Position numbers and translations under genes: made by a program. Below are positions 4,088-36,154 of a stretch of DNA of 64,000 nucleotides, in pieces (the stretch's first letter is position 1; each line of letters opens with the position of its first letter). Location of the stretch: contig JANQKF010000019.1 in the NCBI GenBank assembly GCA_028281285.1, forward strand, positions 186,001-250,000, written 5' to 3'. This DNA comes from Cyclobacteriaceae bacterium. GTDB taxonomy: Bacteria > Bacteroidota > Bacteroidia > Cytophagales > Cyclobacteriaceae. A model generated the notes under the pieces. The model was not told where the DNA came from, searched no databases, and worked only from the letters and a program-made list of their open reading frames with translations.

Positions 4088-5206
4088 CTATTGAAATTGG
4101 TATTGAAATTCCGGGTCCTTTCTTATGACTTCAATGCTCTGAGGATAATTTTCAATTAGCCAGATTGTAAGGCGTGTCAGATCCACCTTCTCTTTGAACA
4201 AGCGGGTCTTTTTTTGAGACCAGGTTGCTTTATAATCCGGGGTAGAAAATAACTCTTTCATTATTGAAAAGATCCTTTCCGGCTCGTTCGTTTTTACCCC
4301 CCAACCCAAATTATAGTTAGACTCTAAATCGTTCAAGTATTCGATTTTGCCAACAAAATCATTGAATCGAATAAAAGGAGTTCCCAATATACCCGCCTCA
4401 GCACACATGGTTTGGCTGTCTCCGATAAACAACGCAGCAAAGAACATCAAGTCTTGCATCTTGTTTGGAGGTATTCTAACCTGATATTTTAGAAGATCTT
4501 CGGAGAGTTGATCTTCGGATGTAATAAAGACCCTTCCCCTGGGTTCCAGAAAATCAATTATGCGATTTAGCAGTGATTTATGAATGCCTCTGTGTTTCCC
4601 TTCAATGTCATGGCCTGCGGTAAGGCTGACTAGCCGAACTATGAAAAAAGTATCGTGCTCGAATAGGTCAAGTTCTTTCAGGATCGACTTGTCTGGCGAA
4701 AAGTAACTGGGATTGAGATAAGCCATCTTCTGGATACCATTATAGGCGATTTTTTTATGGGAGTACGGGCCAACGGAGGTATATTCCGGAGCTACGATGA
4801 AGCTGGCAAAAGGATAGGTTGCTTTACAAAAAAGCCTGTTTATTTCGAAATCGTCTTCATTAAAAATAAAGGAGGGTATGCGTTTTAATCGACCAATGTG
4901 TGCGATGGAAATGTCTGTTCCTAAAAGAAAGTCGGGCTTCTCTTTCCGAATTTCTTTATAGAGGTTAATGTCCTGTGTGATCAGCTCACCAATACCCTTG
5001 GAGATGATGGATAGGATATTTTTTCTTCGACTCTTTTTTTCACTGATTTTTGTATACACCTCCTTTTCGCTTTGAAGTAGGTTTTCAAGAATGTCCTTTT
5101 GCCGGATTACGATTTTTGTCTCGTATCCCTTTTCGCGCAGCCCTCTTATCACATACTTGAACAAGTAATAATGAGCGGGATGATTAAGGGAGAACAGTAC
5201 TTTCAT
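4088..5206 (-). CDS. DUF354-family protein (GT-B-like)
   Basis: 372 aa with the features of the DUF354 family: an N-terminal FSLNHPAHYYLFKYVI segment, DISIAHIGRLKRIPSFIFNEDDFE around residue 115, and a C-terminal GDSQTMCAEAGILGTPFI nucleotide-binding-like loop. The fold is that of GT-B glycosyltransferases (MurG/UDP-GlcNAc 2-epimerase-like). Members sit in capsule and O-antigen loci, but their exact reaction is not known to me. It overlaps hisF2 by 1 bp, so it is probably translated with the acetamidino-sugar genes and may act on that sugar. No signal peptide. A 206-bp gap separates it from the sugar transferase gene downstream. Confidence 0.75.
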   Translation of the reverse strand: MKVLFSLNHPAHYYLFKYVIRGLREKGYETKIVIRQKDILENLLQSEKEVYTKISEKKSRRKNILSIISKGIGELITQDINLYKEIRKEKPDFLLGTDISIAHIGRLKRIPSFIFNEDDFEINRLFCKATYPFASFIVAPEYTSVGPYSHKKIAYNGIQKMAYLNPSYFSPDKSILKELDLFEHDTFFIVRLVSLTAGHDIEGKHRGIHKSLLNRIIDFLEPRGRVFITSEDQLSEDLLKYQVRIPPNKMQDLMFFAALFIGDSQTMCAEAGILGTPFIRFNDFVGKIEYLNDLESNYNLGWGVKTNEPERIFSIMKELFSTPDYKATWSQKKTRLFKEKVDLTRLTIWLIENYPQSIEVIRKDPEFQYQFQ

Positions 5207-5961
5207 TAGAACATTACTTTCAAATCGGCCGGATCGGGATAGTTGATCAAAACGGCCTTACGAGGGCCATGATAAACGAACATTGAACCTGCAGCAACAG
5301 CCGATGCATAGGAGTCGACTGCAGCCCTGAAATCATCATGATTGGAAGCTCCACCTGACGCCACGACTGGAATTGTGACAGCCGAGGCCACCGAATTGAC
5401 CAATTCTAGATCATAACCCGACATCGTACCATCTTTGTCGATCGAATTGATTAGTATTTCTCCTGCTCCCATGTCTTCAATCAGTCGAGCGAAATTGACC
5501 GGATCCAGGCCTGTCGATTTACGCCCTCCAAAGGCGTAGACCTGTTTTTTACCAAAAACTTTCTTTTTGACATCAATGGATACTACAATCGTAGAACTTC
5601 CAAAGACCTCAGCGGCCTCCTTTATAAAATCGGGTCTTTCCGTAGCGCAAGTATTGATAACGACCTTCTCGGCTCCGGCCTTTATGATTTGTTCGATGTC
5701 CTCAATACGGCTGATACCACCTCCTACAGCAAACGGCATATTTGCCTCGTTACCCACTTTGTCAACGAAGTCGAGTGAAATAGTTCTGTTTTCCTTACTG
5801 GCCAGAATGTCCAGAAAGACAAGTTCATCGGCCTTTAAATCATTGAAAAGCTTAACGGCATTAATAGGGTCTCCTATGTACCGAAAGTCCTTGAACTTTA
5901 CTGATTTTACCAGACCGTTGTTCTTTAGAAGGAGAACAGGTATGACTCTTGGCCTAAACAC
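5206..5961 (-). CDS. hisF2: HisF2/WbuZ-type cyclase-like subunit for sugar amidination
   Basis: A TIM-barrel protein of the HisF superfamily, 251 aa. It is not the histidine enzyme: catalytic Asp11 of HisF is replaced by Leu (PVLLLKNNGLVKS, residues 8-20) while Asp130 is kept, a pattern I associate with the AglZ/HisF2/WbuZ acetamidino-modification subfamily. Known role by family: with HisH2 it forms an ammonia channel that feeds the WbpG amidotransferase, which converts an N-acetyl group of a UDP-sugar to an acetamidino group. GTG start 3 bp after the hisH2 stop; the other three flanking junctions also overlap or touch, so DUF354, hisF2, hisH2 and wbpG form one unit. Confidence 0.88.
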   Translation of the reverse strand: MFRPRVIPVLLLKNNGLVKSVKFKDFRYIGDPINAVKLFNDLKADELVFLDILASKENRTISLDFVDKVGNEANMPFAVGGGISRIEDIEQIIKAGAEKVVINTCATERPDFIKEAAEVFGSSTIVVSIDVKKKVFGKKQVYAFGGRKSTGLDPVNFARLIEDMGAGEILINSIDKDGTMSGYDLELVNSVASAVTIPVVASGGASNHDDFRAAVDSYASAVAAGSMFVYHGPRKAVLINYPDPADLKVMF

Positions 5962-5964
5962 ACT

Positions 5965-6588
5965 TTAAGTTAACTCTACAAAATTCTTTATCAACTTTTC
6001 TCCGACATCGTGGCTCTTCTCTGGGTGAAACTGTGTACCCCAAATGTTGTCTCTTTGAATGGCTGAGGTAAAAGTATACTCATAGTCAGTAGTTGCCAAA
6101 ACGTCCTCTGGATCATTGCAAACAATATGATAGGCATGAACAAAGTAGAAACTTGAGTCATTAGATATTCCCTGACTAAATTGAGTATCTCTGGTAAATG
6201 CCGCATTATTCCAGCCGGTATGAGGGACCTTATGTTGAAGCCGGTCTTGAATGTTGAATTTAACCACCTCAGCATCAAACCAACCCAACCCTTCGGCATT
6301 TCCTTCTGTACTTGTCTTCGCCATAAGCTGCATTCCAAGACAAATACCCAGAACAGGAGTTTTGTCGTTAAGCACTCGTTGGTTCAATACATCCCAAATG
6401 TCAAATTCCTTTAACTTGCTACAAGCTTGAGAAAAATGACCAACACCTGGTAATACCAATTTCTCCGCCTTGGCAATCTGGGACGGCTCTCTGGTTATCC
6501 TGGACTTCGCACCAATTCGTTCAAATTTCTTTTGAACTGAGCGGAGATTACCCATTCCATAGTCAATAATTACGATATCACCGAGCAT
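5965..6588 (-). CDS. hisH2: HisH2/WbuY-type glutamine amidotransferase subunit
   Basis: Class I glutamine amidotransferase of 207 aa. The nucleophile elbow GICLGMQ places Cys at 83, and the catalytic His188 and Glu190 lie in QFHPEKS; PGVGHF and YFVHAYHI are also conserved. It would hydrolyse glutamine and pass ammonia to HisF2. Close similarity to histidine-pathway HisH is expected, but no other his gene is present, and the position between hisF2 and wbpG indicates the acetamidino-sugar role. Its start overlaps the end of wbpG by 11 bp, consistent with translational coupling. Confidence 0.88.
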   Translation of the reverse strand: MLGDIVIIDYGMGNLRSVQKKFERIGAKSRITREPSQIAKAEKLVLPGVGHFSQACSKLKEFDIWDVLNQRVLNDKTPVLGICLGMQLMAKTSTEGNAEGLGWFDAEVVKFNIQDRLQHKVPHTGWNNAAFTRDTQFSQGISNDSSFYFVHAYHIVCNDPEDVLATTDYEYTFTSAIQRDNIWGTQFHPEKSHDVGEKLIKNFVELT

Positions 6589-7714
6589 ACTTCAAGTAAA
6601 GGATTTTTGGCAAAGCCTTCATTTGAGTAGCCATTTTTATTGGCCATCTCAAGATCCGCATAAGGGGAAGAAGTGTTTTATAATCGTCATGCGACTTGAT
6701 CGGCATATTCATGATTTCTTCCCATTCCTTTGACGAAATTCCCAATTTATTAACCGCGTAGTCCACTGTCTCTTGCTCATAAATGTATGGGCTGGATTCG
6801 ATTTCTGATAGTGCTTCGGCCCTTGTGCACTGTCCGGAACGAATCAAGGCTGAAAGTTCCGTTTTACGCTTATCAATATTGAATTTCTGTGGCAGATAAT
6901 ACGATTGAAAGAATTTTGTAAAGTGGTTTTCATGATGGTGTCCACCGTAATACTCCCAATCCAATTCCTGTTTCAATATTTGGTCCACTTCCGTCTTATT
7001 GTAGTCGATGAACTCCATCAATCGAAATTCACGAATGCCTTTTACCCAGATATAGAATTGCAGCTTCGCAACGCTCATATGAGGAAAACTTTTGATTCGC
7101 CTTATTTTTCCAAATTTTTTGTGAACGTCCTTGACGTATAAGGGGTCCATATAGGTCCAGCTGATCGGAGAGGTTCCCTCTGTTCTGAAAGAATGGCCGT
7201 TGAGGATATATTTGAGACCTTCTTTGCTGGCCACGTGATAGAGCACGGAATAAATGGCATAATCCGTAGGAATGTCGGCATCGGGTGTGGAGGATTTCAA
7301 AAAGGCGACCTGGAGATCCTTGAACTCCTCCCAATCCGCCACGATTGTATAGAGTTCAACATCCAATTTTTGACAGGCGTTTTTAATGTTCCTCACCGAA
7401 ATGTCAGAATTCCAACCATTGTCAAAGTGTACAGCCAATGGCCGGAGGCCCAACCTTTTTGCGGTAAGAAGTGTATATGTGCTGTCCCGGCCTCCGCTTA
7501 CACCCACTATGCAATCGTACTTTTTGTTGCGACCGGCTTTTTTAATTCGAGCAATCATTTGTTGTAGCTCGACTTCCAGAGTAGGGCCTAAGGGATGGGC
7601 CTTTTCAAGTTCATCATGAATCTTGCAATATTTGCATTCACCGAATTCATCGTACCAGATATCTTCTATGGTATCATCCAAAATGCATCGACTACATATC
7701 TGCTCCTTATGCAT
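6578..7714 (-). CDS. wbpG: N-acetyl sugar amidotransferase (WbpG/PseA/WbuX-like)
   Basis: 378 aa. The N-terminus carries a Cys cluster (CSRC at 7-10 and CKYC at 27-30), probably a zinc site. It is followed by the ATP-pyrophosphatase P-loop GVSGGRDSTY (71-80) and the family-typical NGHSFRTEGTSPISWTYMDP. The enzyme adenylates the amide oxygen of an N-acetyl sugar and replaces it with ammonia from HisH2/HisF2, giving an acetamidino (amidine) group. In Pseudomonas aeruginosa O5 the substrate is the ManNAc3NAcA made by WbpA-B-E-D-I, and wbpB and wbpD homologues lie 4 kb away here, so the same product is plausible. It overlaps the preceding gene by 8 bp. Confidence 0.9.
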   Translation of the reverse strand: MHKEQICSRCILDDTIEDIWYDEFGECKYCKIHDELEKAHPLGPTLEVELQQMIARIKKAGRNKKYDCIVGVSGGRDSTYTLLTAKRLGLRPLAVHFDNGWNSDISVRNIKNACQKLDVELYTIVADWEEFKDLQVAFLKSSTPDADIPTDYAIYSVLYHVASKEGLKYILNGHSFRTEGTSPISWTYMDPLYVKDVHKKFGKIRRIKSFPHMSVAKLQFYIWVKGIREFRLMEFIDYNKTEVDQILKQELDWEYYGGHHHENHFTKFFQSYYLPQKFNIDKRKTELSALIRSGQCTRAEALSEIESSPYIYEQETVDYAVNKLGISSKEWEEIMNMPIKSHDDYKTLLPLMRILRWPIKMATQMKALPKILYLKYAR

Positions 7715-8882: not shown

Positions 8883-11005
8883 AAGACTATTTTTCTATTT
8901 TCCATGATGCTCTGTAGCACTTTGAAAGTGGCCAATGTGCTCAGATGGGACTCCTCAAAAGGAATAGGGCAAGGAGTGCCCTCTTTGATAGATTTTAAAA
9001 AGGCCCTGACTCCATTTGCATGGCCTTTGTCCTTACCCTTATAGGTGAATTTCTGTGTTCTGTTCCCAAATACCTTCAAGGTTTTAAAGTCGTCCATCTG
9101 AGCAATTGTGCCTCCTGAAAAAACTTCTAAGTACTCTTTGGGAACAGTCTTGTTGCCGTTCGCGAAGTAATTGATGGAAGCTATGCTGCCGTTTTCCATT
9201 TTGAGGTTGATCACCACGGTGTTATTAAGATCATTAGGATCTGGCATATTTTCTGCCGATACTGAAACTATCGGACTATCAGCTAAGAACATGGCAAGGT
9301 CTATAAAGTGGCAAGCCTCACCGATTATTCTTCCACCTCCCAAAATCGGGTCGTTCACCCAATGATCTGGAGGTACTACACCTGAGTTTATCCGGATAAC
9401 AATCGATTTGGGCTGTTCCGGAAGGAAGAGTTTTTTTAATTCCTGAATTGCAGGGGCAAACCTTCTGTTGAAGCCCACCATAATATGCTTGGATTTTGTC
9501 TGTTCATAGGTCTTCTTTATGTCAAGGAGTTCGTCTTCATTCATTGCCAGTGGTTTTTCAACGAAAACATGCTTATTACTTTGAACAGATTTTATAACGT
9601 TCTCAGCATGAAGATTATGTCTGGTTGTGATGAATACTGTGTTGACACTGTCATCCGCAACAATCTCATCACCGGTGGATGCCAAATAGTTAAAACCATA
9701 CTTATCACCAACATGCTTGGCGGTATTGCCCCGGCCGGTGGCTATTCCAACAAAGTTGCAGTACCCCTTCATATTGGGGAGTAATGAAGCCTGAGCAAAG
9801 GCACCCGCACCAATAAAACCAACGTTGGCCTCTTCGGGGAGGTAATTATGGCTGTTTAGCTCGACCTTCTTCCGTAGTTCTGAACCGTCATCGTATTGAA
9901 TCACAATTCCGGCAAAAGGCTCGTCCTTCGCCAATATCAAATCATAGGCATGTGGCGATTCTTCTAAGGGGAATGTATGTGTTATCAGCCCTGAAATGTC
10001 AAGTCTCTTTGAGGTCAGGAAATCAATATAGCTCTGCATATTGCGATTTTCGGTCCACCTCACGTAGGCAATAGGGTAGTCAATACCTTTTTCTTCGTAG
10101 TTGCCATCGTAACGGCCGGGGCCATAAGAGGACGACATTCTCAGATCAAGTTCCTTCCTATAATAATTTGGCCTGCTGAAGCCTGTGGGTACTGCACCTA
10201 CAATTACCACCTTGCCTTTCTTTCTTGCCATTGCCCCGGCATACTCAACAGGGTCCAATGAACTGGTACCCGCAGTGATAATCACCGCATCAGCGCCTTG
10301 CCCTTTAGTGAATTCTAATATGGTCGCGTCCAGACCGTTCTGATTGCGATTATAGACATGATTTATTCCGGCCGATTTTGACAACCTGACCTGATCTTCA
10401 GAGAGATCAATGCCAATGGGTTTCATTCCGGAAAGTTCCAGGATTTTATAGGTGATCTGCCCGATGATTCCCATGCCTATTATGAGGCAATTTTCACCCA
10501 TTCTAAGGTCTGCCTGTCTGATGCCTTGTATAGCAATTGCCGCAATTGTCGAAAATGCAGCCTGTTTTAGGTCAACGGTTTGCGGAACTTTAACTGCCAG
10601 ATTAGTGGGCACCGAAACTACATCAGCATGGGAGGCCGTGCTGCCACCGCAGGCTACCCAATCACCTACTTGAAATCCAGTGACTCCCTCTCCAATTGCA
10701 ATCACTTCACCGGCACAACTGTATCCCAGAGACGAAGGAGCTTCCAGCTTATTCATTACGAGCTTATAAGTGGGTAAGAGGCCATTGGATTTCACCATTT
10801 GAATGACCTGTCGCACTTCCTTTTGACGGCTTTTCGCCTTGGCAAGATAGTTCTTACGAGCCTCGGTGACCGTCTTTCCTTCGGTGCCCGTACTGATCAC
10901 GGAATAATGATTCCTGACCATTATATATCCTTTGTTCAAAGCAGGAAAAGGAACTTCCAATATTTCCATTTTTCCAGATTTAAGCTGTTGAGTTAGTTGT
11001 TTCAT
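8879..11005 (-). CDS. Bi-domain oxidoreductase: zinc-type alcohol dehydrogenase fused to Gfo/Idh/MocA dehydrogenase
   Basis: 708 aa. Residues 1 to about 365 are a medium-chain dehydrogenase (SLGYSCAGEVIAIGEGV, then CLIIGMGIIGQITYKIL for NAD(P) binding); the structural-zinc cysteine cluster is not evident. Residues about 390-708 are a Gfo/Idh/MocA unit (VGFIGAGAFAQASLLPN, then FVEKPLAMNEDE, then MVGFNRRFAPAI). The same fusion is common in Bacteroidota and proteobacterial polysaccharide clusters, often beside heparinase II/III-like genes as in this operon. The substrate is not established; successive oxidation and reduction of a nucleotide or lipid-linked sugar is a reasonable guess. Confidence 0.82.
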   Translation of the reverse strand: MKQLTQQLKSGKMEILEVPFPALNKGYIMVRNHYSVISTGTEGKTVTEARKNYLAKAKSRQKEVRQVIQMVKSNGLLPTYKLVMNKLEAPSSLGYSCAGEVIAIGEGVTGFQVGDWVACGGSTASHADVVSVPTNLAVKVPQTVDLKQAAFSTIAAIAIQGIRQADLRMGENCLIIGMGIIGQITYKILELSGMKPIGIDLSEDQVRLSKSAGINHVYNRNQNGLDATILEFTKGQGADAVIITAGTSSLDPVEYAGAMARKKGKVVIVGAVPTGFSRPNYYRKELDLRMSSSYGPGRYDGNYEEKGIDYPIAYVRWTENRNMQSYIDFLTSKRLDISGLITHTFPLEESPHAYDLILAKDEPFAGIVIQYDDGSELRKKVELNSHNYLPEEANVGFIGAGAFAQASLLPNMKGYCNFVGIATGRGNTAKHVGDKYGFNYLASTGDEIVADDSVNTVFITTRHNLHAENVIKSVQSNKHVFVEKPLAMNEDELLDIKKTYEQTKSKHIMVGFNRRFAPAIQELKKLFLPEQPKSIVIRINSGVVPPDHWVNDPILGGGRIIGEACHFIDLAMFLADSPIVSVSAENMPDPNDLNNTVVINLKMENGSIASINYFANGNKTVPKEYLEVFSGGTIAQMDDFKTLKVFGNRTQKFTYKGKDKGHANGVRAFLKSIKEGTPCPIPFEESHLSTLATFKVLQSIMENRKIVL

Positions 11006-11089
11006 TGCTTGGGTTCTATTGCCAATTTACTAGATAAAGGGCAAAGCCTTAACGACAAGGCAGGAGTATATTTTCAAAATAGCATAAAT

Positions 11090-12283
11090 TCAGAATGTCC
11101 GGTAAATGTCTAGGATCTTCTTTTCTTCGTTTTCCCAATTCAGCCGATTATGGGCCAGTTTCAACGCGTTGGGTTTAAGTTTTTCGTACTTCTTTTGATC
11201 AAGCAGTTTCCTCATGGCTCCTTCGATTGAGGCAACGGATTTTATGTCAAATGTTTCGCCAACCTGCCCGTGGCTATTGTTATAGATGATAGTATTCAGA
11301 TTATCGTAATTCGTACTCAGTAAAGGCAAACCAGCCATTAGATATTCCGAAACCTTGTTAAGGGCTGATAACCTCGTATTTACCGAGCTTCCCATAAGTG
11401 GAATAATTCCAATATCGGCAGCGGATGCATAATTCATGAGTTCCTTGTTTGGCACTGGTGGAAGGATGAACACCCGTTCAGACAGGTTGAGCGACCGAAT
11501 AATATCGTCAAATTTTAATCTAATTTCATTATTCATGAAACCTACGATTATGAAGTTCAGTGATGGAAAGGCCTTCATAGATTTGAGGGTGTTCTCAAAA
11601 CCGTAAAACCGATCCATATAGATGCCGCCTGAATAGAACAACAATGGAGAATCATGGTCCAGATTGAGCTTACTTTTTATGAAATTATCAGTTGTTGCCG
11701 GAACATGTTTCAAGGGTACGTAATTGTTTATTACATGTGGTTTAGGGATGTTGTACTTTGTGGCAATGAAATCGGCTCGCTCGTCAGAAGCTTGAATAAA
11801 AGCGTGGCACCTTTTCAATACTAGTTTTTCAGTGAGCATATTCAACCGATTCTTGAGCCGGTTTTTTGCTGAGGTGTTTTCATAGTGCTCGGAGTGCAGT
11901 TCATGAGCGTCATACACAAACTTTGCTCTATGAAGAATGGCTGATAGAAAAGAAGGTAGCAAAAATTTCATGTTATGCGCATGATAGACTTCTGCTTTAT
12001 GCATCACGATCCATAGGTTAACCCGGAGAAGGAAAAATAAGGCCTCTGCATATTTTTTCGCCTTTCCCCATTTTGTAGCATCAGATCGTCTGTTCTTAAA
12101 TGGGTATTCGTAGAATTTGATATTTGAATCCTGACGGATTTTCTTTTTGTCAATTGAAGTATTGTACATGTGAAGGTGCACGTGAAATCCGTTTTCAGAA
12201 AGAGAGTGTGCCTCTTTCAAGACCCTGGCATCGTATCGAACATCCGAAAACTCAGCCATAATCACTCTGGGAAGCTTTTTCAT
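11090..12283 (-). CDS. Glycosyltransferase family 4 protein
   Basis: 397 aa GT-B enzyme. The N-terminal domain contains EFSDVRYDARVLKEAHSL and VYHAHNMKFLLPSFL; the C-terminal nucleotide-sugar domain has LLFYSGGIYMDRFYGFENT and the GT4 hallmark region ADIGIIPLMGSSVNTRLSALNKVSEYLMAGLP. The conserved Glu of the EX7E motif is replaced by an S/N-rich stretch ending in KVSEYL, which is common in this subgroup. It would add one sugar of the repeat unit at the cytoplasmic membrane; donor and acceptor cannot be read from sequence. Its ATG overlaps the stop of a possible small ORF upstream (12280-12453). Confidence 0.8.
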   Translation of the reverse strand: MKKLPRVIMAEFSDVRYDARVLKEAHSLSENGFHVHLHMYNTSIDKKKIRQDSNIKFYEYPFKNRRSDATKWGKAKKYAEALFFLLRVNLWIVMHKAEVYHAHNMKFLLPSFLSAILHRAKFVYDAHELHSEHYENTSAKNRLKNRLNMLTEKLVLKRCHAFIQASDERADFIATKYNIPKPHVINNYVPLKHVPATTDNFIKSKLNLDHDSPLLFYSGGIYMDRFYGFENTLKSMKAFPSLNFIIVGFMNNEIRLKFDDIIRSLNLSERVFILPPVPNKELMNYASAADIGIIPLMGSSVNTRLSALNKVSEYLMAGLPLLSTNYDNLNTIIYNNSHGQVGETFDIKSVASIEGAMRKLLDQKKYEKLKPNALKLAHNRLNWENEEKKILDIYRTF

Positions 12284-12453
12284 GTCCTGAAGGTGATTTT
12301 TATAGAGTTGTGGTGTTCATTTCGGGGGGCATGAATCATAGAATACTTTTGATTGAGTAGCCGAAAATAGTCCTTTTGAGATGAAATAGATAGTGAAAAT
12401 AAGGCATGTCTATAGAATTCATTCACCTCCCGTTCCAATATAACCTTAAGCAT
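12280..12453 (-). CDS. Possible small ORF, 57 aa, coupled to the GT4 gene
   Basis: This frame fills much of the roughly 300-bp gap between the TagF-like gene and the GT4 gene. It starts with ATG at 12453 and its TGA overlaps the GT4 ATG in an ATGA arrangement, the same junction used by many gene pairs in this operon. The peptide is charged and shows no signal peptide, transmembrane helix or recognisable motif (N-terminal MLKVILEREVNEFYRHAL). It could be a real small gene, a remnant of a larger one, or chance. I assign no function. The rest of the gap (12454-12579) shows nothing. Confidence 0.3.
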   Translation of the reverse strand: MLKVILEREVNEFYRHALFSLSISSQKDYFRLLNQKYSMIHAPRNEHHNSIKITFRT

Positions 12454-12579
12454 GACTTCTCATCCGTTAAGGAAAAGGAGGTCTGGTGATCAGTAATTTT
12501 TTTGAGATAAGTTGAGGATGGATAATAACTCTGGGTTACCAGAGATGATGATGGGTCTGTGTATGATCGACCTACACGA

Positions 12580-13665
12580 TTAGTTTTGCGATGTAGTGGT
12601 TTTGCCCTGAGCTTCGATTTGCTCAATAATAGCATCCCATTCTTTACCCCCATCGGGATAGGCGATCTTCATGACTTCGCTATACATGTATTTTAGTACT
12701 TTGAGCCCCAACTCCTTGATGGAACGAGTCCTGGAGTACTTTACTTTGACCAATACGTTCACTTCTCCTTGTTCAGAGATGCTTTCGAGATGTTTGAGAA
12801 CCGTTTTGGTGTAAGATCCGCCCGGCTTCATGTATTTTTTAACCCCAGCTGGTGCATAAGTAACTAAAGGTTTGGAGGGATCGAGGCCCAGCTCAGTACA
12901 AACGTCCAGTTTATTTTGAGAGGTATTACAGTTTAAATAGTCATCGGCCTTTGGATAACCGCCAATGACAACTCTTTCATGATTTTTTGCTAAGAGATAT
13001 TGGGTTCGGATTTTTCCGGCCTTTCCTGCGGCAATGTGCAAATGAATATTTTCAAAATACCCATTCCTTTTATAGTCTCTTTTAGCTTTGGCAATGTTGG
13101 CCGTGGACGGTCCTTTCAGATCGTGATCAATATGGACCGTATAGCCTTGCTCAATCTTCTTGATATCGTTAAAATGAGCTCCAATAAAGATCGTTTCTTT
13201 TCTATAGCTGTTGCCAGGTATATATTTATGGATGAGCTCAACCGACAAGTGCCTTTGTTGTATTTGTGCAATTAAGGGTTGCAGGTTGGTTTTTCGCACC
13301 GCATTGTTTCCATCAATCAACACAAAGTCAGGATTCAAAAATCCGGATCTTTCAATAGAGAGATCAATGCAGAACTTGTTAGCACCTCCTTCTGGTAGAA
13401 ACATAGTCTGATCTACCCAGAATTTCCTGTGATCACCAAATTCAGAAGGGTTATTCAAAGATCGGTGAATCGCATTGGCCAGCCCTTCAAGATTCGTTTT
13501 GATTCCAATTTCAGGGAAGTGCCGAGTCACCCAATCATTAGCCAACAAAATTACGGGCCTGTCGAACAACAGAAATTCATAGTTGATATTCGACATATCA
13601 CCAATCAAGACGTCTGAGGCTGCCAGGTATTTGGGCTCCGCACTTCCTAGTATTGTAAACCCCAT
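12580..13665 (-). CDS. CDP-glycerol glycerophosphotransferase (TagF)-like protein with permuted domain order
   Basis: 361 aa. The family's late motif comes first: SDVLIGDMSNINYEFLLFD at 18-35 then RPVIL, corresponding to the DxxITDYSS motif, with the usual C-terminal GANKF..DLSIE at 94-105. The normally earlier elements follow: an N-domain-like segment (about 112-185, with VHIDHDLKG in place of LWHGTPLK), VVIGGYPKADDY at 232-243, the KPLVTYAPAG strand at 265-274, and VNVLVKVKYSR. The protein stops where the late motif would normally begin. An in-frame stop lies two codons upstream of the ATG, so no N-terminus is missing. It overlaps the phosphonoacetaldehyde reductase gene by 19 bp. Family members transfer a polyol phosphate from a CDP-linked donor; here a CMP-phosphonate donor is likely (inference). 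Confidence 0.65.
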   Translation of the reverse strand: MGFTILGSAEPKYLAASDVLIGDMSNINYEFLLFDRPVILLANDWVTRHFPEIGIKTNLEGLANAIHRSLNNPSEFGDHRKFWVDQTMFLPEGGANKFCIDLSIERSGFLNPDFVLIDGNNAVRKTNLQPLIAQIQQRHLSVELIHKYIPGNSYRKETIFIGAHFNDIKKIEQGYTVHIDHDLKGPSTANIAKAKRDYKRNGYFENIHLHIAAGKAGKIRTQYLLAKNHERVVIGGYPKADDYLNCNTSQNKLDVCTELGLDPSKPLVTYAPAGVKKYMKPGGSYTKTVLKHLESISEQGEVNVLVKVKYSRTRSIKELGLKVLKYMYSEVMKIAYPDGGKEWDAIIEQIEAQGKTTTSQN

Positions 13666-14762
13666 TTTTTACTCCAGTATTCGGTAAATTTTGATAAGCT
13701 GAAAAAGTTCTTCGCTCTTTGATTTTCCAGGACCTGTTCCTTTATCTGCTGGAAATCGAATTTTTCCAGAGAATAGGTGCTCAAATCGGGACTCACACTG
13801 CAAATACGAAAAAGATTCAATAGCCGAGTATGAAGATCTTTAGAAAAGAGCTGCTCGAGTTTTTCAGCCATTTCAGTCTCTTCGGCTTCGATAAATTCCA
13901 CGATTAATGGTAAAGGTGCGCTACTAGCGATTCCGTGCGGTGTTCCCTTCTCAAGTGTTAGGTAGTAGGATATGGCATGGGCCATGGCGGTTCGAGTATT
14001 GGAGAAAGCCAAACCGGCATTTAATGAAGCGAAGAGTAGTTGAGATCGGTATTCAATATTTTCAGGATCGCTCAGGAGTTTTGGTAGGAATTCAAAAATT
14101 CTGGCAACCGCCATCGAGGCATAGTGCTCAGAAATCGGATTCGAATTCACGTTCCACACAGATTCTAAGGAATGCGACAAAGCGTCCAAGCCAGATTGGA
14201 TGGTAAAATCAAGTGGCAATGACAGTTGAGTTCTTGGATCACAAATGGCCCGTTCTGCCCAAAGGTCTGGTAAATGCAACGAGAATTTTTTTTGATTTAC
14301 ATCATCCCAAACGGTAGCCCATGGGGTCACCTCACTGCCAGAACCAGCAGTAGTAGGTACCAAGATAAAAGGCTTTCGGACATAGGTTTGATCCTGATTT
14401 CCCTTAATCAATGCCTCAACCACATCGGTGTCATTTTTATAAAGTGATAATGCCTTTGCTGTATCCAGTACGCTGCCTCCGCCATAGCCTACGATCAGGT
14501 CAATTTCCATATTTCTCATTGTAGAGAGATACGCTCCAATAGTTCGAAAGGTGGGGTTAGGTGTTACGTCATCGATTAAATGCACAATCGATGATTGGGC
14601 ATGTTTGTTCAACGATTGAAAGACTGGGTTTTTTGCGTTTGACTTCGAAGTCACTACAAGAGTCTTGCGATCCCCAATTATCTTCGGAAGTTTATTCAAT
14701 ACTCCTTCACCGAATTCTATTTTAACAGGATTATAATATGTAAAACCGTCTTTAGCCGTCAT
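13647..14762 (-). CDS. Phosphonoacetaldehyde reductase (iron-dependent alcohol dehydrogenase, PhpC-like)
   Basis: 371 aa group III alcohol dehydrogenase. The NAD(P)-binding GGGSVLDTAKA lies at 94-104, PTTAGSGSEVT follows at 136-146, and the metal ligands are Asp193, His197 (GLDALSHSLE), His262 and His276 (TPHG). In phosphonate clusters this enzyme reduces phosphonoacetaldehyde to 2-hydroxyethylphosphonate. The adjacency to decarboxylase and PEP mutase genes (2-bp gap to the decarboxylase) makes this assignment strong, although sequence alone would only say Fe-ADH. There is no AEP transaminase of the PhnW type in the cassette. Confidence 0.85.
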   Translation of the reverse strand: MTAKDGFTYYNPVKIEFGEGVLNKLPKIIGDRKTLVVTSKSNAKNPVFQSLNKHAQSSIVHLIDDVTPNPTFRTIGAYLSTMRNMEIDLIVGYGGGSVLDTAKALSLYKNDTDVVEALIKGNQDQTYVRKPFILVPTTAGSGSEVTPWATVWDDVNQKKFSLHLPDLWAERAICDPRTQLSLPLDFTIQSGLDALSHSLESVWNVNSNPISEHYASMAVARIFEFLPKLLSDPENIEYRSQLLFASLNAGLAFSNTRTAMAHAISYYLTLEKGTPHGIASSAPLPLIVEFIEAEETEMAEKLEQLFSKDLHTRLLNLFRICSVSPDLSTYSLEKFDFQQIKEQVLENQRAKNFFSLSKFTEYWSKKWGLQY

Positions 14763-14764
14763 AC

Positions 14765-15898
14765 TTACCTATTCCGTAATTTGTTCATGAAGGCCCTTTT
14801 ATTGTCATGCGTTGAGGTGGTCGGCCTTCCAAGGTTTGCCCTGGCGCCCTGATTAATCATTACTTCAATTAAAGCGGGCCCGTTTAATTTTTTGACCTCT
14901 AAAAGCGTGTCGACTATTTCTTCCCTGGTGATCACCCTGCGAAGCTCCTTGTATCCGGAGGCTTTGGCAATCTGTAAAAAATCGGTGTTATAACCTACTG
15001 TTGGTTGACCTCCAACGGATTCGTGCGATCCGTTGTTGAAGATGATGTGAATGAAATTTCCCGGTTGCACATTGCCAATAATAGGCAGAGATCCCATATG
15101 CATAAGCACGGCCCCATCGCCATCAAAACAGTAAATCGTAGTATTGGGTTTGTTAATCGCAATGCCAAGTGCGATTTGATTGGCATGTCCCATAGAACCA
15201 ACGGTTAGAAAATCGTTTTCATGGGGCTGGCCCAATTCTTTTCGATATTCAAATAGTTCTCTTGATGTCTTTCCGGTGGTCGAGACGATCATATCTTCCT
15301 CACCCAATTGGTCAACAATCAGTTTGATGGCTTCCTCCCGTTTCAAAGCGTATTTGGGTCTTTCAGACTGCTGCATCTCATAATCCTTGAAAATTCCTTT
15401 CGGAACAACAAGAAAATGGGGACTGCTATTCTGCTCGATTGAGGAAAGAATATCAGCCATTTGAGTAGTCAAGTCTTCACTCTCTGAATCTTCAAGTACT
15501 TTGTAGGGCATGTCCATTGCGTCCAGTAAATCCAGTGTTGATTTGCCCTGAGTGATGTGTTGAGGTTCATCGTGGAGACCAGGTTGACCCCTCCATCCAA
15601 CAACAATCAGAACCGGGATGGAATACACATTTTTATCGGTTAGTGATAGCAAAGGATTGATAAGGTTTCCAAGGCCAGAATTCTGAAGATAAACCAGAGG
15701 TGTTTTTCCTGTAGCCAGATGATACCCTGCGGCTAGTGCCAGGGCAGCTCCTTCATTGGCGGCTATGATATGATTAGAAGCTTCAACATGGTCATATAAA
15801 CAACTCAGAAAGGGTTTGAGCAGGGAATCGGGCACCCCGCTGTAGAACTCCACGTTCTGGCCGGATAAAATTTGGTAAAACTGGTGCGGGTCGATCAC
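14765..15898 (-). CDS. aepY: Phosphonopyruvate decarboxylase
   Basis: 377 aa thiamine-diphosphate enzyme of the Ppd/sulfopyruvate decarboxylase type. The N-terminal PYR domain carries YSGVPDSLLKPF and the catalytic Glu49 (AANEGAALALAAGY). The C-terminal PP domain has the cofactor motif from GDG at 260-262 to NN at 288-289. It decarboxylates phosphonopyruvate to phosphonoacetaldehyde, the irreversible step that pulls the unfavourable PEP mutase equilibrium forward. It is single-chain, unlike two-subunit sulfopyruvate decarboxylases. Gaps to its neighbours are 6 bp and 2 bp, so the cassette is a tight operon. Confidence 0.92.
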   Translation of the reverse strand: MIDPHQFYQILSGQNVEFYSGVPDSLLKPFLSCLYDHVEASNHIIAANEGAALALAAGYHLATGKTPLVYLQNSGLGNLINPLLSLTDKNVYSIPVLIVVGWRGQPGLHDEPQHITQGKSTLDLLDAMDMPYKVLEDSESEDLTTQMADILSSIEQNSSPHFLVVPKGIFKDYEMQQSERPKYALKREEAIKLIVDQLGEEDMIVSTTGKTSRELFEYRKELGQPHENDFLTVGSMGHANQIALGIAINKPNTTIYCFDGDGAVLMHMGSLPIIGNVQPGNFIHIIFNNGSHESVGGQPTVGYNTDFLQIAKASGYKELRRVITREEIVDTLLEVKKLNGPALIEVMINQGARANLGRPTTSTHDNKRAFMNKLRNR

Positions 15899-15904
15899 TT
15901 TGGT

Positions 15905-17203
15905 TTATTTGGTGCCTGGAATCAGTTCGAGTATTTCTTTTATTGGCATACATTGGTCATTGGCTTCATACGATCGCCCATGGGAAAGTATGGATTTTGC
16001 CACTTTAACCATTGCCGGATACGAGCTTCTTAGCATGTGATTGGCATAAATAACGACATTAACTCCTAGTTCAACCAGCTCGCTCTCGGAGATTTTGTTG
16101 TAGGAACTTGGAACAGCCACCAAGGGCCTGCGTTCTTCGAAATTTTGATATGCCTTGCAAAAAGCAACGATTTCATTTGTTGTTTTCTTTTTGCTATGGA
16201 TCATAATGCCGTCTGCTCCTGCATCAATATAGGCTTTGGCCCTTTCAACAGCATCTTCTACCGGATTTCCCATGATGAAGCTTTCGATTCGGGCAATGAT
16301 CATGAAATCGTCCGTGATCTGTGCGTTTTTGCCCGCCTTAATTTTATGGCAAAAATTTTCAATCGAATCCTGTTTCTGCTCGACATCGGTGCCAAACAGT
16401 GAATTCTTTTTGAGTCCAATTTTGTCCTCAATTATGATGGCCGAGACACCGAGTCGCTCAAGAGTTCTGACGGTAAATACGAAATGTTCGGGTTTTCCAC
16501 CGGTATCGCCATCGTATATAATTGGCTTGGACGTGCTTTCCAGTGCGTCATTCAGATTTTGTAATCGGGTAGTTAGATCTACAGCTTCAATGTCTGGCTT
16601 GCCTCTCAAAGTGGAATCAGTCAGGCTGGAAGCCCACATGCCGTCAAATTCACGGGGCATATTGTCAACATCAACTTTAAGGTTCTCAACAATGAGACTC
16701 GTTAACCCGCTGTGAGACTCCAGAATCCTCACAATGTTTTTAGCATCGATCAGCCTTTTCAGCTTCTTTCGTCTTACATCCGGTGTGATGCCAATCTCTT
16801 TAAGAGCACTTTGTAAACTGGATGAAGAAATGCCCTGGGTATAGGGTACCTCGACAAGTTCACCTCCCCATTGTGCCAAAGTGTTAATGACTTTTTCTCG
16901 GGTACTTTTTTGGGGACCTTCCTTCCAATCATCTCCATGTACCACGAAATCAGGCTTCAGCTTTTCAAGGTTAGGGGTATAGTCCAAGGTTTCCTGTGGA
17001 ATTACTTTAGCCACCCCGCTTATATTTTCAACAACAATTTTTCGTTGTTCAAAGGTCATATAGGGTAATCTCTTGTAGCTGGCAATCGCTTTATCCGTCA
17101 GAAGTCCAATAGTCACTGCTCCTAGTTTTTTGGCTTCATTGATAATGTTCAAATGGCCCGGATGAACCAAGTCGGCACTCATTCCGACATATACCTCTTT
17201 CAT
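15905..17203 (-). CDS. aepX: Phosphoenolpyruvate mutase with N-terminal nucleotidyltransferase domain
   Basis: 432 aa. Residues 1 to about 140 are a glycerol-3-phosphate cytidylyltransferase-like domain: HPGH at 14-17 and GISSSSLQ at 124-131, corresponding to the family's HxGH and ISTT motifs. Residues about 145-432 are a PEP mutase of the isocitrate lyase superfamily: [18 protein letters not shown] at 231-236, and the diagnostic EDK-x5-NS at 259-268, which separates true mutases from lyases. It forms the C-P bond of phosphonopyruvate. The attached nucleotidyltransferase could later load the finished phosphonate onto CMP for transfer to a glycan. Fusions of this kind are known for PEP mutases in phosphonoglycan clusters, as far as I recall. 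Confidence 0.92.
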
Positions 17204-31204: not shown

Positions 31205-33067
31205 CTAATTTGATGGGTTGACTTTGGCTTTCCTCTTATAATCAGCCCTGCTATTCTCCAGAAGAATGTGTTTAAGCTCTTTTACCGGGTGCATGGATCT
31301 GCGCGAGAAGTGATTACAGAAAAGCACCCTGGCCGTTTGCACAACCTCGCTATTCCACCATTCCGAGATATTATTCCATACCTCATTCGTCTTTTGTGAG
31401 ATGGCCTTAGGTGAAAAGTGCAAAATTTCCGCTTCCACCAATTTCATGAAGAAAGGTCTTGCATTCTCTCGGATATCGTTTAATTCACTGTGCCAAAAAC
31501 AAAGAACAGGAACATTCATCGCCAAAAGCTCCAGAATGACGGTTGAGTTATAGGACACCACCGTCAACCTGCTTTCAGTGATCCATTGAGACAAGTTTTT
31601 TACGCCTTGATCAACCTGAATATCAGGATATCGGTCAGCCCATCTCAGATTTTCAAACCAGGGAGCCATTTTGAACCCATGATGCAATCGCACAATCAAT
31701 GATTGCTGAATTTCTCCGGAGAGATGTTCCACAAATGAAAACTGGTCTTCCTGATACTTATTATAATCGGGATATACGTCCCACGGTTCAATTGGCTGAG
31801 GTAAATGAACTTCAACCAGGAGCAACCTCCCTCGAGGATTATTTTTTAGAGGTTTTTGATTCGAAATTATAAAATTGAACCCTTCCACCAATTTTGGGTT
31901 GCTATTGCCCCATCCCCAGGTGATGAATTTATCACTGGTTGCCAAACACTCGTCTTCTGAATAAATGTATTTATAGGACCCGAAATTGTTTCCATGTTGG
32001 CCCGCATAGTACGTGCTCCCCGATTCCACCTTTTCTGCGATATAGGCCTTGCAGACTTCATCGGTATCAAAAGAGCTGCTGGTGAAAATAAATCTGGGAG
32101 AACTTGGCCAGGGCAAGTTTTTTGTCCGTGTTAAAAGATCCTGGTAACCTTCTAGATAGCATACAGGCAGTAGTTGGAAAAACAATGTTCTGACGCATTG
32201 CTCAAAACCTTCCATTCCCATATTCCCATATTTTTCCGAGAGCAGGTTTCTTTCTTCGCGATTCGGATCACTCGGACTTACTCGAGGTGAAGACCAGGTT
32301 ATAGGCGATTGACGAAGACTTAGTTTCAGTCTAGCTTCAATTTTTTTTGGGAGGTAACTCTTAATTATGAAGGCGTCATTGGCTTGGCTGAAAGTCTCGG
32401 AAATTGCATTCAATTTTCCATAGAAATATTGCAAAATACGCTTTTTTAAAGGCTTACGTTGCCTTAAATGAGGCGCTCCTTTGACTGAAATATTTTGTCG
32501 GAGATCAGTGGCATTTTCGTCTAGTCCAACACGATCAATTTCGAGGGTAATGTTCTTTTGCAATGAAAGAATCTTACCAAAGAGAATATTGTTCCACACT
32601 TCACCCTGCGAATCCCAAATCAATTGCTCTGAATCGGCACCGCAGAGATTCGTGCTTTCTTCAGCAAACAAAGTCAGGCTTGAAATCTTATAGGAGTTTA
32701 AGCATTGAAGTAAGGTACAATAGCGATTATAAACGGTTGCAATATACCTGTGTAACCAGTGCCCCAATAATATGCGCCAATATCTTGAGCTGTGATTGGT
32801 TTTATGGTAATCATTAAGGAATTTGGAAATTTCTACCAGAATCTCCTCTTTAAGCCGGTTGACATAGGCATAATCGCGGTCTTTTTGCTCGGTTTCCACA
32901 CCATAGGGTTTGGCAACAATGGCATCCATAGTAGACCAGACCTCCTTGCGATCGTATCTTTTGCACCAATCACCCAGAAAAATGACCGATCTGTCAAACT
33001 TCCACGTTCTTTCATCTGCCGTAAGAATCAGGTGCCTCGCCTTATCATTGTTGGTTTCCACTGCCAT
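31205..33067 (-). CDS. LIC12162-family putative transferase
   Basis: 620 aa. The N-terminal TADERTWKFDRSVIFLGDWCKRYDR, and SRYWRILLGHWLHRYIA about 95 residues later, are hallmarks of the LIC12162 family named from Leptospira. The C-terminal half has a GT-B-like look: TYYAGQHGNNFG, FITWGWGNSN, IVRLHHGFKMAPWFENL, and VVSYNSTVILELLAMNVPVLCFW, which resembles the sugar-nucleotide loop of glycosyl/Kdo-like transferases. It is placed 24 bp downstream of wzx. The function is not established; transfer of the product of the NeuB-like fusion encoded 3 kb away is a reasonable guess, since the two occur together elsewhere as far as I recall. Confidence 0.78.
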   Translation of the reverse strand: MAVETNNDKARHLILTADERTWKFDRSVIFLGDWCKRYDRKEVWSTMDAIVAKPYGVETEQKDRDYAYVNRLKEEILVEISKFLNDYHKTNHSSRYWRILLGHWLHRYIATVYNRYCTLLQCLNSYKISSLTLFAEESTNLCGADSEQLIWDSQGEVWNNILFGKILSLQKNITLEIDRVGLDENATDLRQNISVKGAPHLRQRKPLKKRILQYFYGKLNAISETFSQANDAFIIKSYLPKKIEARLKLSLRQSPITWSSPRVSPSDPNREERNLLSEKYGNMGMEGFEQCVRTLFFQLLPVCYLEGYQDLLTRTKNLPWPSSPRFIFTSSSFDTDEVCKAYIAEKVESGSTYYAGQHGNNFGSYKYIYSEDECLATSDKFITWGWGNSNPKLVEGFNFIISNQKPLKNNPRGRLLLVEVHLPQPIEPWDVYPDYNKYQEDQFSFVEHLSGEIQQSLIVRLHHGFKMAPWFENLRWADRYPDIQVDQGVKNLSQWITESRLTVVSYNSTVILELLAMNVPVLCFWHSELNDIRENARPFFMKLVEAEILHFSPKAISQKTNEVWNNISEWWNSEVVQTARVLFCNHFSRRSMHPVKELKHILLENSRADYKRKAKVNPSN

Positions 33068-34825: not shown

Positions 34826-36154
34826 TTAGGTTAGCCTTTTGAACCCAGAATGACAGACCGGCCCCTTTAATAAAGACGAGGTATTACCCTTTTTTTCTGC
34901 ATCGGAAAGAATGTTGAAAACATCATTGGTTGCATTCAGGTATTGCTCAACATGATCCGTTGAATGGGCATAAGAAGCATAAAATGCCGTTGTGGCAAGA
35001 AAACCTCTTTCAAGCATAAGCTGAGTAAAGAGGGTCTTGAGTTCGAGATGGTTGTTTTTGAACCGAAAATGACTCAACGGATATATTCCTCCAACTTCAA
35101 TCTCAAGTTGATGATTGGCTGCTACTTTCTTCCAGCCTTCTTGTATCGATCGCCCAATGGTGATAAGGTGAGACCATACCTTTTTTTCTTCCATTTTTCG
35201 GATTGAAGCAATTGCGGCAGTTGGGCCAATGCCCTCGGTCCAATAAGTACTGCTAATAAATGAGTCCTGACTTGCCTGCATTACCTCCTTATTCCCGATT
35301 ATGGCTGACATGGCATAGCCATTGCCTAATCCTTTTCCAAATACCGCAATGTCTGGTACCAAATGATAGCGTAGGTGGGCACCGCCCAGATTTAATCGCC
35401 ATCCGCTGGAGACTTCATCCATAATAAGGACAAACCCATATTTCTCCCTGGCCTCCTGAATGGCGTTGAAGAAATCCGGATCGGGTTCAAAGTTTCTAAG
35501 CGTTTCAAGTACAACAACACCGAGCTCATTTCCATGTTCTGCAATCCGCGCCTGAAATTCATCGGTGTTGTTATAGGTAAAAGGAATGGATGTACCCAAC
35601 AACTCCTTTGGTACACCAACCGGACTTAAGCCGGGTAGTAAATGCCCTTTGAGTGATTCGTCACCAACCAGGTTGGCAGACAAGTACCAATCATGCCAAC
35701 CATGATAACCACAAAATAAGGTGACACTTCTCCTTGACTTTGCTCTGGCAATACGTACCGCAATGGCAAGAGCCTCGCCTCCGGTTCTGGCATACCTTAC
35801 CATATCTGCCCAGGGATGAAGGTCGATAAGAAGCTGGGCAAGCTCCACTTCCTCAGGTACGTTCAGGGTGCTCATATTACCCCTCTGAATTGCTGATTTA
35901 ACGGCTTCATCCACATCCACATCGGCATAGCCAAGAATATTGGCTCCGATCCCCATATAGCTCATGTCCAAATATTCCCGATCATCTAGGTCCCAAAGCT
36001 TACATCCCTGGGCTTTTGAATAATAGGATGGCCATTGGTCAGGCAAGAACATTTCAGGTCTTTTGGACAGCAATTGGGTTCCACCGGGAATCAGTGTTTT
36101 AGCTTTTTTGTATAAAGCCTGAGATCGGTGGGGTCCGTTGTTGTCAGCATTCAT
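34826..36154 (-). CDS. Class III PLP aminotransferase (glutamate-1-semialdehyde aminomutase-like)
   Basis: 442 aa. PLP-enzyme features: YARTGGEALAIAVRIARA for phosphate binding, CGYHGWHDWY, DEVSSG at 246-251, and the Schiff-base Lys274 in VFGKGLGNGYAMSA. It resembles glutamate-1-semialdehyde 2,1-aminomutase, but the housekeeping HemL role is unlikely in this position. Homologues near NeuB/SpsF genes are thought to aminate or isomerise a small precursor. It lies 28 bp downstream of the NeuB-like fusion gene. An AEP-type transaminase for the phosphonate pathway is a less likely alternative. Confidence 0.8.
   Translation of the reverse strand: MNADNNGPHRSQALYKKAKTLIPGGTQLLSKRPEMFLPDQWPSYYSKAQGCKLWDLDDREYLDMSYMGIGANILGYADVDVDEAVKSAIQRGNMSTLNVPEEVELAQLLIDLHPWADMVRYARTGGEALAIAVRIARAKSRRSVTLFCGYHGWHDWYLSANLVGDESLKGHLLPGLSPVGVPKELLGTSIPFTYNNTDEFQARIAEHGNELGVVVLETLRNFEPDPDFFNAIQEAREKYGFVLIMDEVSSGWRLNLGGAHLRYHLVPDIAVFGKGLGNGYAMSAIIGNKEVMQASQDSFISSTYWTEGIGPTAAIASIRKMEEKKVWSHLITIGRSIQEGWKKVAANHQLEIEVGGIYPLSHFRFKNNHLELKTLFTQLMLERGFLATTAFYASYAHSTDHVEQYLNATNDVFNILSDAEKKGNTSSLLKGPVCHSGFKRLT

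Follow-up and report, generated by a model that had tools for sequence, protein, structure and literature searches.

The window, a stretch of 64,000 nucleotides of Cyclobacteriaceae DNA, contains a TagF-family gene whose two segments stand in inverted order: the C-terminal part of the standard protein comes first and the N-terminal part comes last (Table 1). The inverted order of this 361-residue open reading frame is real in this assembly. The source is a genome of 5.16 Mb in 40 contigs, with the window on contig C20. As far as comparison of sequences allows, the gene is probably a natural circular permutation of a TagF-family GT-B phosphotransferase that still makes an enzyme. More tentatively, and with somewhat less than even confidence, we suggest that it may be a working enzyme, which would make it the first naturally permuted GT-B phosphotransferase known from the TagF family, and that it would add hydroxyethylphosphonate to a surface glycan with a lysine in place of the usual pyrophosphate-binding histidine.

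Table 1. Features of the permuted gene and its upstream neighbors (positions within the window)
Feature	Position	Strand	Basis
Permuted TagF-family (PF04464) gene, 361 aa	12580..13665	-	ORF, Pfam/HMM order, codon usage
In-frame TAA, two codons 5' of ATG (TAA-AAA-ATG)	13669..13671	-	Sequence
GGAG Shine-Dalgarno-like site, 6 nt 5' of ATG	13672..13675	-	By eye, without genome-wide control
Segment B, residues 1-108: TagF C-terminal part, now N-terminal	13342..13665	-	Profile and alignment
Segment A, residues 112-354: N-terminal Rossmann domain and first part of C-terminal domain, now last	12604..13332	-	Profile (residues 162-310), otherwise inspection
C-terminal tail KTTTSQN, seven residues	12583..12603	-	Sequence; codon score drops about here
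Terminator-like hairpin 3' of permuted gene	12529..12544	-	1 found vs 1.8 expected in shuffles, weak
SDVLIGDMSN, residues 17-26, (S/T)DYSS equivalent	13588..13617	-	Profile columns 268-277
His181, WHG-motif His equivalent	13123..13125	-	Column 108, H in 50/71 relatives
GYPK motif, residues 236-239	12949..12960	-	Profile columns 160-163
TYAPAG motif, residues 269-274	12844..12861	-	Profile alignment
Lys309, where 66/71 relatives have His	12739..12741	-	Column 230
PsrA-like Fe-alcohol dehydrogenase, phosphonoacetaldehyde reductase-like	13647..14762	-	TIGR03405, 354.8 bits, below cut-off 423.7
Phosphonopyruvate decarboxylase	14765..15898	-	TIGR03297, 491.6 bits, above cut-off
Cytidylyltransferase (PF01467)-PEP mutase fusion	15905..17203	-	TIGR02320, 412.3 bits, above cut-off

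Two TagF segments in inverted order

The whole protein matches PF04464 at 44.8 bits (E = 1.1e-11), above the gathering score of 22.1, with residues 14-45 on profile positions 265-296. When the halves were searched separately, residues 1-110 matched positions 265-296 (E = 1.2e-6) and residues 111-361 matched positions 156-244 (E = 0.00048; 19.6 bits, below the cut-off of 22.1). A genome-wide PF04464 search returned the same two places in the gene with the same inversion. We also built a standard-order profile from 71 relatives, with E-values set for 5000 sequences. Residues 12-93 correspond to its columns 263-356 (34.2 bits, E = 4e-9) and residues 162-310 to columns 86-231 (32.2 bits, E = 1.6e-8), so that columns 263-356 precede 86-231 and the standard succession of N-domain and C-domain is reversed. 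Reordering the same residues by script to the standard arrangement yielded a single domain of 67.4 bits, and the best whole-sequence E-value among 2000 shuffles of the native protein was 0.095. Against the broad family profile the protein reaches only about 69 bits. The set of 71 sequences is without L047 (epimerase-like by eye) and L016 (identical to L015); the profile std.hmm is without the partial L062 but still contains L047 and L016.

An earlier note, made from the letters of the DNA, had proposed a permuted motif order, and the domain-order comparison upholds it in both Pfam and our own profile, which favors reading the gene as a permutation. The same note took roughly the first 105 residues for the TagF C-terminal segment; the opposite idea, that segment B is unrelated to TagF, is ruled out by its matches to PF04464 and to our profile. 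In the standard TagF fold, segment B corresponds to the stretch that opens shortly ahead of the D-x-S motif and closes with the final helix, and residues 1-108 align along their length with C-terminal fragments of 20 relatives. The profile places residues 12-93 of segment B; for residues 1-11 and 94-108 the assignment comes solely from inspecting this alignment. Similarly, residues 162-310 of segment A are placed by profile and residues 112-161 and 311-354 by inspection only. The cyclic shift is demonstrated for columns 263-356 and 86-231, with columns 1-85 and 232-262 placed by inspection only. The short tail that follows segment A has no evident homology.

Reading frame and codon signal

The codon score of the permuted gene is positive in frame from about residue 10 to about residue 350 and runs unbroken through the B-A junction. 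Its mean is 0.11, compared with 0.06-0.16 in 26 neighboring genes; GC3 is ordinary in both halves, and the GC content and codon usage of the gene agree with those of its neighbors. The in-frame stop upstream of the ATG that the earlier note reported is present. This stop, together with the onset of the codon signal, rules out a frameshift or a missed N terminus. The permutation reading is favored by the placement of both segments in one frame under an unbroken codon signal, and further by the GGAG site ahead of the ATG together with the upstream stop. A TTG at residue 110 (13336-13338, reverse strand) begins the stretch LNPDFVLIDGN (by eye). It resembles the start of the ancestral segment A, and internal initiation there could in principle occur.

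Motifs and conserved positions

SDVLIGDMSN does stand first in the chain, one residue earlier than the 18-27 given in the earlier note, and the GYP and TYAPAG motifs follow it as that note described. The WHG-type catalytic histidine (TagF H444) is represented by His181, in a local motif that reads DHD, not WHG. Lys309 stands in column 230, whose histidine we take as the counterpart of the second active-site histidine (TagF H584). PMC11666461 describes CDP-glycerol as the TagF donor, H444 as the likely base, and H584 as binding pyrophosphate. Either the lysine has taken over the pyrophosphate contact or activity has been lost. Of the 15 family columns with the strongest conservation, the permuted protein retains 10, against 6-15 in the 71 relatives. 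Among the retained residues are His181, Gly, Pro, and Asp in the GYPK region, and Asp and Ser around D-x-S. This retention argues for the permutation reading; the loss of the near-invariant histidine weakens it.

Phosphonate neighborhood and proposed donor

Reading along the operon, the cytidylyltransferase-PEP mutase fusion is followed by the decarboxylase, the dehydrogenase, and then the permuted gene, which shares its first 19 nt with the 3' end of the dehydrogenase gene. By eye, the dehydrogenase C terminus falls inside the range seen in 17 relatives. The gene set of a CMP-HEP locus is thus present and adjacent (PEP mutase, decarboxylase, reductase, and cytidylyltransferase), with the reductase below its NCBIfam cut-off. 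A scan for PEP mutase gave the loci of 231 relatives, of which we compared the best 80. A dehydrogenase match occurs in 72 of these best 80 loci, and 26 of them hold a total of 28 TagF-like ORFs. In 11 of the best 80 a TagF-like gene directly follows the dehydrogenase (e.g., L090, L071, L076, L064, L040, and L054), the slot that the permuted gene occupies; all 11 have the usual order, unlike the permuted gene. L047 was left out of both the 11 and the 28 and L016 was kept in the 28. The shared slot favors the permutation reading, as does the PF01467-PEP mutase fusion, since Fom1, with the same N-terminal PF01467 fusion, is described as making CMP-HEP (PMC6697681).

Because a Fom1-type fusion makes CMP-HEP and TagF uses CDP-glycerol, the simplest reading, by analogy, is that the permuted protein is a TagF relative that would act on CMP-HEP. 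The earlier note's idea of a phosphonate donor fits this neighborhood, but the donor itself is one that we infer. By analogy with TagF and CDP-glycerol, the enzyme would probably transfer 2-hydroxyethylphosphonate from CMP-hydroxyethylphosphonate, supplied by the three upstream genes, to a surface polysaccharide, with CMP leaving. If functional, it would be a candidate transferase acting after CMP-phosphonate formation. The later phosphonyl-tailoring steps are called enigmatic in the abstract of PMC6697681.

Search for relatives of the same order

Homologues of the same order, which the earlier note had suggested looking for in other phosphonate loci, did not emerge: 27 of the 28 TagF-like ORFs at PEP-mutase loci are of standard order and one (L062) is too partial to classify. 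A census of 198 Bacteroidota genomes matched PF04464 in 48, the source genome included. It gave 54 places besides the permuted gene; the standard profile scored ORFs at 49 of these, 52 in total. None of the 52 is inverted; 47 are standard and five too partial. Both motif regions are spanned in a single stretch by 45 of them, and L129 and L145 match in two stretches in standard order.

Protein searches with the permuted sequence point the same way. The source genome was the only match among 395 genomes of the phylum (E <= 1e-6) and among 98 of the family; among 390 genomes of the order, at 0.01, it was accompanied by one 42-residue match that contains a stop. Searches farther afield matched one of eight genomes with PEP-mutase loci and one of 200 genomes in the phylum of a Sulfurimonas locus (the same genome in both searches), three of 198 genomes in the phylum of a Desulfobacteraceae locus, and, weakly (E = 0.0025), one of 88 in the phylum of an Omnitrophota locus. 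The matches L094, L095, and L096 are of standard order, and no ORF match was found for L002 or L097. Octamer scans matched 22 stretches of genome contigs and 18 stretches of viral contigs, none confirmed as a close relative. Partial weak matches, four on plasmids and three on phages, with a Shinella protein among the seven, lie outside the order counts. Of six plasmid neighborhoods of PsrA-like dehydrogenases, the four with annotation list no TagF-like neighbor, and TIGR03405 at E <= 1e-70 matched the source genome alone among 395 genomes of the class.

The permuted protein thus appears unique within the material searched; it is divergent, so an unsampled sister of the same order may exist. 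That no same-order relative was found in the searches or among the readable ORFs weakens the permutation reading. Among the literature matches listed (titles and abstract openings, mostly without subscription journals), none describes a circularly permuted TagF, and none shows a TagF-family member with a phosphonate donor. Two Bacteroidota loci each carry two different TagF-like genes upstream of PEP mutase: L027 (8868-9995, forward, and 6199-7230, reverse) and L028 (8911-9999, forward, and 6127-7158, reverse).

Rejoined ends and predicted structure

According to the earlier note, the two ends of the protein could be joined to restore a normal chain. We added the C-terminal tail to the head, aligned the product to relatives, and compared the result with 300 shuffles. 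With the whole tail, 51 of 300 shuffles did as well against three short relatives and 68 of 300 against all 71; with residues 335-354 only, the counts were 24 and 103 of 300. The gain is not significant in any of the four versions, leaving the proposal unproven and weakening the permutation reading. Further, the spacing between the Lys/His position and the D of D-x-S after rejoining is 61 residues (hand count), outside the 30-57 of the family, which also counts against it.

Structure prediction of the native protein gave a pLDDT of 36.8 alone and 53.1 (pTM 0.44) with an alignment. This alignment consists of full-length rows, chosen because MAFFT misplaced segment A among the native sequence and fragments; it gives segment B no depth, misaligns residues 310-361 (by eye), and covers correctly, again by eye, only part of segment A. 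The best Foldseek matches of this weak model, itself guided by an alignment of TagF relatives, are TagF chains (3l7m_A; E = 1.5e-4, TM 0.38, rmsd 9.7), and other GT-B enzymes are also among the matches. Structure prediction of the native chain, one part of what the earlier note called for, leads back to TagF at its top matches, which favors the permutation reading, but with poor confidence, which weakens it.

Origin and alternative explanations

On the permutation reading, the chain would start within the C-terminal Rossmann domain, immediately ahead of D-x-S, and run to the old C terminus. A short linker would connect this to the old N terminus, and the chain would end at the opening point; the fold would probably be that of a usual GT-B enzyme. 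Such a gene could have arisen by tandem duplication, fusion in frame of the C-terminal half of one copy to the N-terminal half of the next, and loss of the outer halves. Recombination between tandem copies, as the earlier note proposed, is possible, but the genome has no second PF04464 match (E <= 1), no second copy by protein search (E <= 0.01), and no clear gene remnant either in its flanks or elsewhere in the window, where the best E-values were 0.087 and 0.12 and nothing was convincing. Nor do the junctions carry a direct repeat better than elsewhere: at the gene start, the B-A junction, and the gene end, 31, 15, and 31 of 50 control windows were as good. A 12-nt direct match of 92% (12066-12077 with 13660-13671) reaches the start of the gene. 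An inverted match of 17 nt at 94% (12119-12135 with 13327-13343) places one of its arms at the B-A junction and is the best among the windows compared in 11000-15000 (score 14; 1 of 50 windows as good); it was noticed after the fact, and we draw no inference from it.

The permutation may instead be old, with the whole phosphonate cassette acquired already permuted from an unsampled lineage. This is a question of origin that overlaps with the preferred reading, and we regard it as a plausible minority account. Among 19 genomes of the genus, only the source genome has PEP mutase; the permuted protein is very divergent; and the dehydrogenase matches a Sulfurimonas (278.6 bits) and an Omnitrophota (244.9) sequence better than the best Bacteroidota sequence in the 80 loci (204.5, L066). 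However, no permuted relative came from 200 genomes of the Sulfurimonas phylum and 88 of the Omnitrophota phylum (leaving aside the weak match at E = 0.0025), and the GC content and codon usage are like those of the neighbors.

The next-best reading, somewhat less probable again, is that the gene is a chimera that is dead or decaying: an in-frame fusion would have joined the C-terminal half of a TagF-like gene to the N-terminal half of an adjacent copy, and the product would be a nonfunctional relic in which stops have yet to appear. The singleton status of the gene, Lys309, the tail of seven residues, and the lack of statistical support for rejoining are all compatible with this. Yet its 361 codons are free of stops, its codon score lies inside the range of its neighbors, and the GGAG and ATG are in place; further, a relic permuted early enough to have diverged so far should, we would expect, have decayed. 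An assembly artefact, in which an ordinary A-B gene was rearranged into B-A during assembly, is very unlikely: this is a single assembly from one strain, and a sceptic could cite the inverted match at the B-A junction, the best short one of the 4-kb region, but the swap would require several separate breakpoints and yet leave one open frame, direct matches at the junctions do not exceed those elsewhere in the region, and the gene lies about 198 kb inside its contig.

Comparison with known systems

Of the explanations considered, we prefer a natural permutation whose product is still an enzyme. Both halves of the protein match the TagF/TarF/TagF-like family (PF04464, CDP-glycerol glycerophosphotransferase, GT-B), with which it has in common the WHG histidine and the GYP[RK], YAP, and D-x-S motifs. 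It differs in the inversion of its halves, in the lysine at the near-invariant histidine, and in YAPAG for YAPT[WF]. Natural precedent for circular permutation in a carbohydrate-active enzyme is provided by the GH70 glucansucrases, described as a permuted GH13 barrel (PMC11046441), although these have another fold and the permutation there marks a whole family, compared with a single gene here. The fusion at 15905-17203 has the same PF01467-PEP mutase domain order as Fom1 of fosfomycin biosynthesis. The fosfomycin pathway proceeds to a small molecule, whereas the fusion described here lies in a surface-polysaccharide locus.

If functional, the permuted protein would be evidence that the donor-binding domain of a GT-B enzyme can withstand a natural break, and it would allow the passage of a circular permutation through a two-domain enzyme to be studied in a single gene. 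Searches that assume a fixed domain order register such a protein only as two weak matches.

Other genes in the window

Several other genes on the reverse strand were noted. A 578-residue ORF (36183-37919) combines a NeuB-like synthase (residues 6-324) with a stretch resembling the CMP-Kdo synthase type of cytidylyltransferase (from residue 334), and adjoins a hemL-like aminotransferase gene (34826-36154). At 31205-33067 lies a LIC12162-family transferase (TIGR04331, 392.9 bits) with a Pfam match at chance level only. The sugar-phosphate transferase at 2730-3881 matches polyprenyl glycosylphosphotransferases only over about residues 217-379, and its first 216 residues have no NCBIfam match. 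Finally, genes of the WbuX, HisH, and AglZ/HisF2 types stand in a row at 5206-7714, forming an acetamidino-sugar modification set.
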